A stretch of DNA of 64,000 bases from Taiwanofungus camphoratus (taxonomy: Eukaryota; Basidiomycota; Agaricomycetes; Polyporales; Taiwanofungaceae). Under the pieces are notes generated by a model, which saw only the letters and a program-made list of their open reading frames with translations, searched no databases and had not been told where the DNA came from. The stretch lies in the NCBI GenBank assembly GCA_003999685.1, contig CP021224.1, forward strand, positions 2,294,001-2,358,000. Direction: 5' to 3'. The translations under genes were made by a program, and so were the position numbers. Of this stretch, positions 33,764 through 40,382 are shown piece after piece (positions within the stretch are counted from its first letter, which is position 1; each line of letters opens with the position of its first letter).

Positions 33764-34396
33764 ATACGGAAGGTGAGAAATTTAGCAGTCATTGTAGCGG
33801 CACTCAATCTCAGCCTACTCTTCTACTCTTTTAGGCATGCTGTGATTTGATCTCGTTCGCGCTGACAGATGGTAAGTACGCGTCGAGTATCCGACATGGT
33901 GTTGTAACATGATTCTAGAAAGGGCGATTGATTGCGTCTTAATATCTATGCACAGGTTCATCATCGTGTTGTCGCTCAAGTAGTAGACCGGGCAGGTTTG
34001 CTGATTGCAGAATCTCCGCCATTATTGTAATGAAGAGTGTCTTTCTCAGCGACAACCCTTCTTTTCTCAGGATCGGTCGGGTAAGCTAAGGATATGTCGG
34101 TTACGACAAATCAGAGCATCCGTACAACACGGAGGTTTATACTAAGACGCGTGCTCATCGACCTGTTGACATAGATCTTAGCATACCAGAGTAAAGCATG
34201 TTTCTCAGTGGCGCCCACTATATGTGTCTGGTTCCCCTGGTTATCTTCACCTTAGTAACTTGGTTATTGGATACCTAGTACCGATGATCGATCAAACTGG
34301 CAGGGAGGTAGGCGTTGATTCGCTATAAATGGATTCACATCCCTCCTTCCTTGTATTCTGCTGCACTACAGAACTCCAACCAATATACCTTTCGAG
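33764..34396. other. Intergenic stretch upstream of the DUF6533 remnant
   Basis: Normal base composition with frequent CpG. At its right end a TATAAA at about 34324-34329 lies some 70 bp before the old DUF6533 start codon, and looks like the former promoter of that gene. Confidence 0.45.
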
Positions 34397-36045
34397 ATGT
34401 CATCTAGTGAAAGTTCTGCTCAAGAAATTGCTGCAATCTCCAGGTCATGGTACGTAAATCTGCATCTGGCATCGTCAATGACTAATGGAGCACTGGCATG
34501 GTCCGTCTTCAGGTTTGTGAACAATAACTGTCAACTTGCAGCTGCAAGCGAGTATTATACTTCTTCATATAATGCAAGTCCATCAGATATCTAATACTGA
34601 TTAGCCCTCATATTCTATGAACATCTCATGAATTTCTCTGACGAGATTCATTTTATCTGGGGTCATAAAAAACTGGTGTTACTGTAATATTTTTTATCAA
34701 CTGGTATCTTCTCATCTGGGGAGTCATTTATGTGCTGTCCAATGTCACTTGGGACACTCCAATGGTGTGTTACTCTTATTGCATTTCATTGTCCACCCTA
34801 ACATGTTTGATATTCAGAGGTGCCTTACACTTACACTTGCACAACATATTCTAATTCACTGTGACCATTGTGCCAGCTGTGAGACCATATGTGTTTTTCA
34901 TTATGTTGTTCAGCTCATACTACTTGCTACCATAGCAGATTAGTGCTACTTGATTACTTTCTTTGTTGCAAACTTAGAGATAAATCTATTTTGTAGGATT
35001 CTCAGCTCTTCATGCTTATGGTATCAGTGGACATAAGTTATGCCTGCCTTGGTAACATTGGCTTTGGGACTTGTCCCAGTGGGCACTGATCTTGTCTATT
35101 TCCTTATCTATCATTGAGTATTAAACACCGATACAACTTTGATAGTATATTGCTTCACATTTATCTTGTGCATATGTGTCATATATAAATGAGACACCAT
35201 TTCAGACTCCATACTTTTCGCAAGCACTTGACATCAAGTATGCTAGTCTGTCCATGACTCACTACAACAGTTTCACAATGTACTTGTCTCTCACTAAGAC
35301 TCACTGAACATGCATCATCTGATTTTTGGTCATGTTGTCTACAGTAATTATTGCCACTCACACTTTTGCTATCATGTCTGACATGAAAGTGCTTATTGTG
35401 ACCTGGTCTCACACTTACAAAATCAGAAAAGAGGCAAGTGTCAAAACATCCTTGATAACATTACTTTGAAGAGATGGTGTGTTTATTTGCTATTCTGGAA
35501 TAGTATATCATAATTTCAAAAACCCTTCACTTAATGTAGGATTAGTCATGCATTGATTAAAACTTGGCACAATTGTTGATCTTCATATAAGATTGCTTCT
35601 GATACTCAATATCATCCAAGTTACCAGAAATTGAATTGCTCCCCTTTGCTCAAAATGTAAGCCTGTTTATATATGTTGAATCAATTTGCTAATCAGCATC
35701 TGTTGACAGTCAGGTGATAGCTATGTAGCATATTTCACTCCTGTGTAGGTAATCTTCTTGACTGCATTCTTGATTTGAACTTATGTCTCTTAGCATATCC
35801 TCAATCCTGGTCTCTGGGGTTATGCTCAATTTTCGTCAGATTTGTTATGTCACAAATGAAAGTATGCAGTATACATCTAGCCAGCAGTCACAGATTCAAT
35901 CTCTTGAATTTGCATCTAGAGTAGTGGGCAATATGGGTACTTCCTTGAGTTTTCTGATTCATCAATATCAAGGACAAGATACAGCTCCAACGTGCTGGCA
36001 CACAATGAGCAAAAAGCCAGGAGATGTGCATGTATGTCATATATA
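34397..36045 (+). pseudogene. Decayed DUF6533-type membrane protein gene
   Basis: DUF6533 proteins are multi-spanning membrane proteins of unknown function that form large families in Agaricomycetes. The first exon (34397-34454) and its intron still look normal, and the next exon resumes with WFVNNNCQLAAAS. Further blocks stay recognisable along the strand in order: IFYEHLMNFSDEIHFIWGHKK, FSALHAYGISGHK followed by LVTLALGLVPVGTDL, ADV-like MSDMKVLIVTWSHTYKIRKEAS, and near the end SSILVSGVMLNFRQ and FASRVVGNMGTSLSFL. Several stops and shifts interrupt these blocks, so no full-length protein can be made. The body is strikingly poor in CpG: I count five CpG in 34561-36045. Changes such as expected Arg to His (LHAYGISGHK for LRAY-type) fit loss of methylated CpG. 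Family assignment is from memory of the motif order. Confidence 0.72.
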
Positions 36046-36346
36046 GGCATATCGGTGTTCTATGAAGGTACGTTTACAAAATACATCACTAGAAAATAGA
36101 CAGACGGAGGAACCCCATGAACACGGAGACAACGTCAAAAGTCAACAATTAGCCCGGAGAGTGGTAACTCGTTTCACGAGCAGCTGGTATAATAGGTATC
36201 GACAAGGTGTCACGACAAGATGAGATCGAGAGATAACGCCTGGCAGAAGAAAGTGTGCTGTATGGAGGTATGGCAATATATAACAAGTGCGAAGCGACGA
36301 TGACGAGAGAAGAAAAGAGCGAAAGGAGCGACAATAGACAGGGTGG

Positions 36347-39300
36347 TCATTCGCGAGCGACCCAATCAGTGCTTCGAGAGACCAGCTCGATGGAATTATC
36401 AATTGTCCAGAACAATCGTTCAATAGCGCTTCGGCCGCTCCAACTCTTTTGGTCACGAAGAACCATTGCCTGTGAGAAAGCTAAGTATCAGCGCTCGTGA
36501 AGTAAGGAATAAATATAGGTAATGCACCTGCTGGGCACCGAAGTTACGCTGATCATGCGCAAATATATCGACATTATCCTCCAGCGCCTCCGACAGCACC
36601 TGCATATCTTGTAATATTGATTGAATTGCACGCATTGCTGACAGCGTAAGGAGCTCCTTGCGATTCCTTGCTTGACCCTCTCTAGCTGAGGGTGGCACAG
36701 ATTGCGTGATGTTCTGCAATACAGTGTGTAGAATGCGTCTCGTTTCACCGAGAAGTTTCTGTGCTTGTGGCATGTTCTTTCTCGACACCAACACAAGTGC
36801 ACGAGTTATCATGTCCGAAGCGAGTAGCTCCATCCTTCGACGTACGATGACAGGGTCGGAACCGTTCGCCGCTGGTGTGCGCGGACGACTGCCAGTATTC
36901 GGCAGTAGTGTGACTGTAAGAAGAACGGGGTGGGCGAGACGCGAGACGTGCTTTGTTGCTGCGGGGTCAAAGAACGATCCATCGACCTCAAATACCGGTA
37001 CTTCGTCAATCATACGGTCCATCATTCCGTCCGCAAGATCGGGAAGATCACCAATTGACAACGCATCCAAGCCAAAACGCTGATTAAACTGATCGGTGGC
37101 ATTCAATGGGCGATTGGGTTGACTAGACTGTTGTGGGGAGATTGGGCTGTGCACTACATCGCTGTTGTCCAACTCGAGCTCGACTAACATCTCCTTGCGC
37201 TCCCCATAACGCAACTCGCCAACTTCGACATCGACATCACGTCCGTCGGAGGACAAAATTGCCATCGGCCCGCCAGATATCTTGCGGATGCGGAAGCGCT
37301 GCCCGTCAACAATCTTCATGTGCAACTTCATATGGAGCAGTCCAATAGACATCATGCCACCAATGCATCCGGCTAGGCAATCGCGCAGGTCGTACCAGTC
37401 CTTCACAAACGTATACGTACCACTGGTATGGTTTGACATCAGCCATAGTGAGGCAGGATCATGTGAGCGGCCGTAGCCGAACGAGTGGATGGGAACATTG
37501 GCAGCTTCTGTGCGTGCGAGCACAAGATCCATCTGTGCACGTCGAGTAGTATCGGATGCGTCGCTGACAAGAACCATGCCCGTTACTGGATTGCGAGACT
37601 TGCGTTGCAGGACAACATCAAGGCCTGATAGACTAATTGAGTGTCTCTGAGGAATGGTTGTAGAATGAAACATACCATGATTGACTGCCGTGACGACATC
37701 CGTCTTATCGTCCTGGGTGGCCCTTACCAAGAACTCGTCCTCAAATGGGCCATCATCATCCCTCCGTCCGATCTCGTCCACAAACTTCTTGAGTCGTGTA
37801 CGGCTTTGCGGCCGTCCAACACACAAGAACGGCGTTTTCCGCACCTTGCCGCCAATGCCAACCTCAAATGTGACAAGGCTCAAGCGGTCTTTCATACCAA
37901 GCGATGCGATCATGAAATCCAAGGAGGCCCTGATAACGCGCAGCTTGAGCGCGGCCGTACTTGGGGTAGCACTGGGAGAGGGGATGGAGATGACAAGGAT
38001 AAGGTCGAGCGGCGGGTGTGGTAGAGGAGTAAGCGAATTTGAAGGGCCTGCAGACATGTGCGGTGCGATGAGCGGCGTCGGCGAACTATACCTGCTCAGC
38101 TCGTCGTCCTCCTCGAGCGTGCTCAGTTTATGCTGTAGGCCGCGAGCAGGGCCCGTGGAGCCCGAACCGTACGACGTATGCGACGAGATCGTCGAACGTG
38201 AGGAACCATTGAGCAAGAGGCTATCCGCAGTGCTCACCGTGGCGGACGTCGCTGTGCTTCCGCTAAGCATGCGCATCGCCTTCTGGCTCCCGCCAAACTC
38301 CTCTTGGAGGATGCGCGCGGCCTTCGCACTCCCGCCAAACTCCTCGAGCTCAGGAGCGCTCTCGCGCGCCGCCGTGCTTTGCTGCTGATACACGGCGACG
38401 AGGCTCTGAATGTGTGCGCGCCATGTTTCAAGCGACGAGCGCTCGCGGAAAATCAGGATGAACGAATCGAGGCGCTCGTCCTCCATGTCGATTGTGAGGC
38501 TCAGCTCGCCGGAGACGCTTGTGTCTGTGACATGTTTGATGTGTCGGATGTAGATGCGGCCCTTCAGCCTAAGCACCCCCTTCTGTGCTGCAGGCCCCTG
38601 CGGGCCGTCGCGCGCATCTCCAAACGCAGACGCCGCACCCGACGCGGACGAGAGGAGGCGCCCGAGGGTACGCTTTTTCTCCTCGACGACGCAGATGATC
38701 GCCTCGCGGAAGAGGTAAACGAAGAACTCGCGCACCATGGCGTCACGCCTGACAGAGAGTAGGTCGTACATCTGCAGCGGCCCGAGCCCCGAAAGCGGGT
38801 GTCCCTTCCAGTCAATGATCCGGTTCCGCAGGTCCTCTGTGATTGCGCTGAAGGGCGAGTCCTCGTTGTCCGCCGATTGTAGCGGTAGCTCCTCGGACTC
38901 TTGAGGCGGAGATCCATAGTGTTCCTGCGAGGATACAGGTGACATCGTGAGTGACCGCAGCCCTGACGCGTGCTCGGGCTTCGGTTGATATGGTTGTGAT
39001 TGCTGGTGCTGGTATGGTTGCTGATGCTGGTATGGTTGCTGAAGCTGATACAGTTGCTGATGCGGGGGTGACATTGCATGATCGGGATGGGGACTTGAGC
39101 GCGCTGACTGGCTGCTATTCTGCATGAGCATGACCGCTCCGGGGACGTGAGTGTTCAACCGCTTGCCCGGCAGCTCGACGACGACGATGCACGTCAGTGG
39201 CTGACTCGCCTCTGATGTGCGTGTCAGCGACGAGAACTCTGATCGCACCTGAATTGACGGCGCGACGATATAGTGCGACTGATCCTGCGACCCCCCTGGC

Positions 39301-40382
39301 TTGAGCGAGCTCCCATGTTCAACGGGATCGTCTTCTGTCGGATCGTACGGCTTGGCAGTCACGTGGCTTGCGCGCCCGTTGAGCGACCGCAGCGAAGACG
39401 GCGTGTCTCGCCCCGGGTACATCGACGGGCCACCGGGGTCGCCCATCCCCGTCAGCGCGGCTAGCTCTGCGACACGGTCAGGACATCAGTTCGGCGGCGC
39501 GGCATCGCGACGACATGTTCAGGTCACTCACTGTTCGATTTCCCGCCGTCCCCGTCTCCCACCTTCATCGGCCGTCTGCACACGCCGCAGACGCCCAGAT
39601 TTGTTTTTCGGACAACCGCTCCAGCGCGCGACGGTCCCGGCGGTGGACCGTATACGGCCGTGAAGCATGCCTGCAAAGACGTCAGCACCAAATATACATC
39701 TTCCACTCCGACGTCGAACAGGTCGTGCGAGGAAACGTGCCCGCGCTGCGCTGTTCACCCAGCCAGAGAGCAGCGCGCTTAACTGCACCACATCGTCGCA
39801 CACCTCCCCATTCAAACGAATGGCGCGCGAGTCACCAGGATGTGGATGGGCAGGCAGCGCATCTCGTTCTCGTCGAAGAATCGCAACCACCACACTCACC
39901 TCATGCAGTGCATGTCCACACTCTGGCACGATGTGTGGTTTCTCTCCAGGCAGTCTGAAGCTGAAGCTCAGAGGCTCCAGGCAGACGGGACACTCGTCCT
40001 CGTCTTCCGTGGCGTCGTGGCTGGAGACAACTGGCAGAGGCGCTGCGACCATGGCAGCGAAGGGGTGTAATTGGCGAGATGAATTCAACTCTGATTGGGA
40101 AGAGTACGGTGGGGGGTTGATGGACGAGGACCCCGAGTACGAGGAGTGGAGAGAGTTGGTAGACGGGGCGCGACCAGGGGCGCGGTGAAAGACAGAACGG
40201 AAAGAGGCAGTGAGCGAAGACGGTTTAGGCACCAAAGATCGAGAGGAAGGACTGGGAGAAGAACTTTGAGGAAGTTGATGAACGTGATAGCTCACGGTCT
40301 GATGCTGATGAGGACGAGGCGGTGGAATATTTGCTATGCTCTGATTCTTCGGAATCCGTTTAGACGGATGATCAGCCTTCAT
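36347..40382 (-). CDS. RING - PH-like - von Willebrand A domain protein
   Basis: Five exons (40382-39900, 39670-39532, 39466-37676, 37624-36528, 36469-36347) give 1,210 residues. Seen: a Ser/Pro-rich N-terminus; a RING-H2 finger with CPVC, CGHALHEAC and CGVC, the last pair encoded by exon 2; a Q/P/Y-rich spacer with QPYQHQ repeats; a region from MYDLLSVRRDAMVREFFVYLF to SSLETWRAHIQSLVA that reads like a PH domain; and a vWA domain, LDLILVISIPSPSATPS through GMVLVSDASDTTRR to PIHSFGYGRSHDPASLWLMS. A C-terminal helical region follows. RING plus vWA suggests a ubiquitin ligase that binds partners through vWA, and the PH-like part suggests membrane contact; this is inference. No yeast gene name can be given safely. 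Confidence 0.85.
38975..39065 (-). repeat. Coding repeat for Gln/Pro/Tyr units
   Basis: Short imperfect tandem units inside exon 3 of the RING-vWA gene, encoding repeated QQPYQHQ-like heptamers. The length keeps the frame, so it probably varies between strains without breaking the gene. Confidence 0.7.

Follow-up and report, generated by a model that had tools for sequence, protein, structure and literature searches.

According to two reviews (PMC13297926, PMC7862722), regions rich in transposons hold most of the CpG methylation of basidiomycetes, and fungi have largely lost gene-body methylation, Uncinocarpus and Metarhizium being among the exceptions. In Coprinopsis cinerea, 5mC/5hmC has been reported on non-expressed multicopy paralogous genes (PMC8889193, citing Chavez 2014), in Puccinia striiformis gene-body methylation is carried by lower-expressed alleles (PMC12129025), and in Pleurotus gene-body methylation has been described as negatively associated with expression (PMC5974365). 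A title search, conducted mostly in literature available without subscription, returned no paper on functional gene families of basidiomycetes that are stripped of CpG. The gene family considered here, DUF6533, is called basidiomycete-specific and includes SNB1 (Snowball), which is described as a membrane protein with seven helices that is required for patterning of the fruiting body (PMC10949477); the domain family is the common ground between SNB1 and the gene analysed here, the seven-helix description being that of SNB1.

The window analysed here is a 64-kb stretch of DNA (C5:2294001-2358000) from a genome of 33.19 Mb in 15 contigs, and contains a DUF6533 gene that is nearly devoid of CpG. 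Matches to DUF6533, DNMT1-RFD and TET/JBP suggest that the genome is that of a mushroom-forming basidiomycete. The likeness to C. cinerea is that modified cytosine there, and putative methylation here, fall on families of paralogous genes in a mushroom; the C. cinerea genes are described as non-expressed, whereas sequence constraint is seen here and DNMT1-type methyltransferase genes are included. P. striiformis is likewise a basidiomycete whose gene bodies carry CpG methylation, measured there and presumed here; the P. striiformis case differs in being measured at the level of alleles, and the term CpG depletion is absent from PMC12129025.

A profile match to PF20151 (DUF6533) was found at 34601-34696 with a score of 30.8 bits (cut-off 24.1) and one stop within the match, and spliced protein-to-DNA alignment placed further family blocks behind it in the expected order, in agreement with the identity assigned in the preliminary description. 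On the plus strand, an open reading frame begins at ATG 34397, and the stretch from the start codon into exon 1 (34397-34549) has partly kept its CpG. The DUF6533 domain exon (34604-34766) contains a frameshift inside an A-run and has Trp at the invariant Arg of the NRY motif. It is followed by a third family block, CETICVFHY... (34877-34942), by the block FSALHAYGISGH (family form FSALRVYAISGR; 34997-35078) with its Arg codon now CAT, by the block SDMKVLIVTW...RDG with an in-frame stop (35345-35502), and by the last family block, SILVSGVMLNFRQI (35794-35857), in which the third invariant Arg is still a CpG codon (CpG 35834). One of the three invariant Arg CpG codons is kept and the other two are TGG (Trp) and CAT (His), so that the Arg-to-His change proposed earlier holds at one invariant Arg, while another became Trp instead. 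The window copy is a pseudogene, in line with the decay described earlier, because its four frameshifts and one stop exceed the 0-2 lesions detected by the same spliced alignment in each of 30 DUF6533 paralogues. No close DNA duplicate of the gene was found elsewhere in the genome, the best other match being 76% over 95 bp.

Dinucleotide counting gave exactly the five CpG previously reported for the 1485 bp from 34561 to 36045 (CpG o/e 0.10, GC 0.368), whereas the whole window has a CpG o/e of 0.94 and a density of 59 CpG per kb. TpG+CpA o/e is 1.58 in the same interval and 1.15 in the whole window, a CpG-specific loss with TpG/CpA gain that is in line with the TG/CA-rich words described earlier. 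In a segment scan in which each base scored +0.018 and each CpG -1, the maximal-scoring segment, assigned to neither strand, extended from 34550 to 36052 with a score of 22.1, compared with 2.9 or less anywhere else in the window and a top segment score of 3.82 in first-order Markov simulations (n=200, 64 kb each). The block begins at -51 relative to the domain start and covers the DUF6533 gene from the first exon through to the 3′ end, its edges lying near the gene limits as originally described; the promoter and first exon, which had been thought nearly untouched, are less affected but not intact in this respect (10 CpG in 34201-34550, approximately 29 vs 59 per kb). CpG is normal in the neighbouring genes, a FAD-binding monooxygenase (PF01494; 32524-33426, plus strand) upstream and a PH_10 domain protein (36456-39485, minus strand; VWA match below cut-off) downstream. 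A regional effect was rejected as the cause, as CpG is normal in the flanks, and contigs with stripped family members carry unstripped ones as well, unstripped L007 lying approximately 50 kb away from stripped L028 on contig C10. An Rfam search over the window returned zero matches.

The same scan was applied to the best 30 of 75 candidate DUF6533 places in the genome (63 of the 75 were marked over the cut-off). Block scores were bimodal: a CpG-stripped block was present in 12 of the 30 loci (scores of 7.2-41.3) and the other 18 scored 3.6 or less, with none between, whereas none of 30 P450 control loci had a block (all scores 2.7 or less). A minimum 600-bp o/e of 0.35 or less was seen in 13/30 DUF6533 and 0/30 P450 loci (Fisher p 4.6e-5), the borderline L024 (minimum 600-bp o/e 0.35) being stripped in this count and unstripped in the count of 12. 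Mean lesions by spliced alignment were 0.75 in the 12 stripped and 0.83 in the 18 unstripped loci, with 0-2 in both classes; single paralogue lesions were left uninterpreted because some are probably artefacts at variable junctions. The lack of excess lesions in stripped loci indicates that CpG loss is distinct from gene death. In a quick tree of 31 rows, 13 of them stripped (L032 was left out due to poor alignment), there were 6 state changes, 2 of which are forced by well-supported branches, relative to a shuffled mean of 10.1, indicating that stripping was partly inherited and partly gained or lost more than once; due to this partial clustering, not every stripped case is independent.

Block position relative to the gene falls into several patterns. 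Six loci are fully stripped (L006, L018, L020, L028, L031 and L033, read at greater length as L035-L040), with a block that begins 0.3-1.0 kb upstream of the domain, ends 2.0-2.6 kb downstream of it and takes in the promoter, with 0.2-0.9 kb of sequence upstream of the gene. In the four loci read at greater length as L041-L044, the block begins 0.41-0.77 kb downstream of the domain start and extends to 1.8-2.1 kb beyond it; the start lies at +493 in L014 and at -116 in L009. Beyond the block edges, CpG regains its normal level over a few hundred bp. In animals and plants, gene-body CpG methylation, as read from CpG depletion, likewise leaves functional genes with CpG-stripped exons and introns; in L011, L012, L013, L014 and L019 the body is stripped and the promoter, start and domain exon are spared. 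Unlike that system, which acts on broadly expressed housekeeping genes, the putative methylation here is confined to a small gene set and includes the promoter in six loci. Two further observations concern the duplicated copies. L038 and L039 share 3′ sequence that contains imperfect repeats (approximately 69-72% identity, spacing of approximately 0.3 kb) and extends past the stripped block, and L036-L039 (stripped; contigs C10 and C14), which are 80-87% identical, have a divergence that is uneven along the gene and looks like gene conversion or mosaic recombination.

Stripped blocks were also found in methyltransferase genes. A profile search of the genome gave five PF00145 matches, taken as four genes, two of which are of DNMT1 type and contain an internal block, at C3:1505165-1507451 (L080/L049; score 20.2, o/e 0.22) and at C3:3120920-3123372 (L081/L047; score 33.2, o/e 0.11). 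Both blocks, of 2.3-2.5 kb, end inside the catalytic region, and CpG-normal sequence lies both before and after the block inside each inferred gene. The former gene has a DNMT1-RFD (PF12047) match and an intact PCQ motif, recognised by manual reading over a small putative intron, and the latter has a BAH match below cut-off; both are probably functional, because their exons are open. The remaining two PF00145 loci (L045 and L046) are CpG normal and have no block. Together, the PF00145 and PF12047 matches show that a predicted DNMT1-type enzyme is present in the genome. Eleven TET/JBP matches were also seen, several in near-identical open frames, which resemble transposon-linked TET genes. Reverse-transcriptase stretches (L082-L086; 5 of 150 matches) had an o/e of 0.55-1.11, corresponding to mild CpG loss or none, and no stripped block was found among these five. 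A view in which methylation serves defence only predicts strong stripping in old transposon copies, and this is not seen in the five stretches.

The few CpGs that remain in the stripped genes recur at codons for invariant arginines. The six fully stripped loci retain 54 CpGs, 16 of them at the three invariant Arg codons (NRY, LRVYA and NLRQ motifs), which are still CpG in 16 of 18 cases. Among four close stripped paralogues, dN/dS was 0.33-0.64 over 242-246 aligned open codons per pair, and the excess of silent changes was significant in five of six pairs (Fisher p 0.0001-0.023; sixth pair 0.053), these pairs sharing sequences; purifying selection therefore operates in this one clade of four stripped loci, in which dS is about equal to noncoding divergence. 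C/T differences among the four copies were found at 2/970 YpG sites vs 455/4215 YpH sites, and A/G differences at 19/878 sites after C vs 406/3914 otherwise. The near absence of YpG differences indicates that CpG was gone before the four copies parted and has scarcely been regained since. The alternative that the blocks are heterochromatic, permanently silent genes on their way out, with methylation serving for silencing only, would fit the inclusion of upstream sequence in the six fully stripped loci; however, dN is lower than dS in the close paralogues, the arginine CpGs have been held, and the methyltransferase genes are stripped internally while their 5′ and 3′ parts are normal, which makes this alternative unlikely.

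The preliminary description had presented the window gene as one decaying family member, and a single dead DUF6533 copy that was silenced by methylation and then decayed would indeed account for a copy with multiple lesions, stripped CpG and lost arginine CpGs. It is at odds with the 12 of the best 30 DUF6533 loci that bear equal or larger blocks without excess lesions, the outcome that the preliminary description itself had named as contrary to its reading, and with the stripping of DNMT1-type genes whose exons are open. Single-copy decay is contradicted as the cause of stripping, for which it is now distinctly unlikely, and stands as the later fate of the window copy.

The mutational signature was compared between 10 stripped and 10 unstripped DUF6533 loci, with CpG per kb of 2.8 vs 32.0 in introns, 3.7 vs 47.6 in flanks and 3.3-10.6 vs 36.6-48.8 across codon positions, where positions 1-2 retain most (10.6). 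From unstripped (excluding L009, L014, L024 and L034 in both the dinucleotide and codon comparisons) to stripped sequence, CpG density drops from 45.6 to 4.1 per kb, and that of TpG+CpA increases from 151.4 to 182.7 per kb; CC/GG falls from 85.5 to 60.4 per kb, a drop in C+G larger than CpG loss explains. At codons with CG in unstripped genes (L022, L029 and L032 also being excluded here), TG or CA was found in 39% of comparisons for fully stripped genes vs 16% for unstripped genes, whereas GC control codons had AC or GT in 23% and 22.5%, respectively; these percentages draw on non-independent pairs, and the window copy was counted among the fully stripped genes.

RIP in basidiomycetes is of the TpCpG type, and shares with the present case a C-to-T loss at CpG. 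RIP or MIP-like targeting of duplicated sequence, also raised in the preliminary description, would be in keeping with the multicopy nature of DUF6533 and with the 80-87% mutual identity of stripped L018, L020, L028 and L031, but all four NCG contexts are reduced 8- to 25-fold in stripped relative to unstripped loci (ACG 0.08, CCG 0.10, GCG 0.04, TCG 0.12) and there is no limitation to TpCpG, TCG being the least depleted (0.12 vs 0.04-0.10). There is no CpA-to-TpA signal either: TpA o/e is 0.72 in stripped and 0.80 in unstripped loci, and 0.81 in the window block vs 0.80 in unstripped family genes, with no rise. Close duplication is not needed, as the window gene and several other stripped loci have no close DNA match in the compared set; in L038/L039, the one duplicated pair compared in this way, homology extends to +4.2 kb but the stripped block stops at +2.0/+2.4 kb, and P450 genes are likewise multicopy yet 0/30 are stripped. 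Such targeting is very unlikely on this evidence. Selection against CpG, codon choice or an AT-rich base-composition effect in place of mutation was rejected as scarcely credible, since, although the blocks are AT-rich (GC approximately 0.37-0.41), CpG loss is as strong in introns and flanks as in exons, GpC o/e in the blocks stays at 1.16, a few low-GC 600-bp windows elsewhere (five listed) retain an o/e of 0.53-0.80, and TpG/CpA is gained in the blocks.

The best reading, to which we assign a probability of roughly 75%, is long-standing CpG methylation and deamination in selected functional genes, which is consistent with the gene-targeted process suggested at the outset. CpG methylation would have acted over evolutionary time on blocks about as long as a gene within a particular set of functional genes, including some members of the DUF6533 membrane-protein family and the two genes for DNMT1-type methyltransferases. 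Deamination of 5mC would have converted nearly all block CpG to TpG or CpA, alike in exons, introns and flanks, and selection would have retained the few CpG coding for indispensable arginines. The window gene would be a member of this stripped class that died later by frameshifts and a stop, after which, released from selection, two of the three held arginine CpGs of this copy may have decayed too. The blocks are recurrent, CpG-specific and biased to one family, with retention of arginine CpGs and, in one clade, purifying selection. Methylation as the cause of the blocks is the probable explanation of this pattern, and it may persist today and may repress or tune these genes. Several results weigh against methylation: the five of 150 reverse-transcriptase matches, representing the usual target in these fungi, are without a block; there is a surplus loss of C+G; one of the six selection tests misses 0.05 and dS is close to noncoding divergence; and the promoter lies inside the block in six loci, unlike in classical gene-body methylation.

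Long-term methylation of particular functional genes is regarded as uncommon among these fungi, and CpG loss alone should not count as gene death. Tentatively, CpG methylation could be a heritable mark that the fungus places on a family of receptor-like seven-helix genes and on the genes for its DNMT1-type enzymes, whose proteins are under selection while their DNA is nearly CpG-free; it might then serve as a switch choosing which members are expressed and as feedback on the methylating enzyme, not as transposon defence. If the methylation reading is true, the stripped genes would provide a ready list of loci with which to test what targets methylation to mushroom genes, and what its effect is there.
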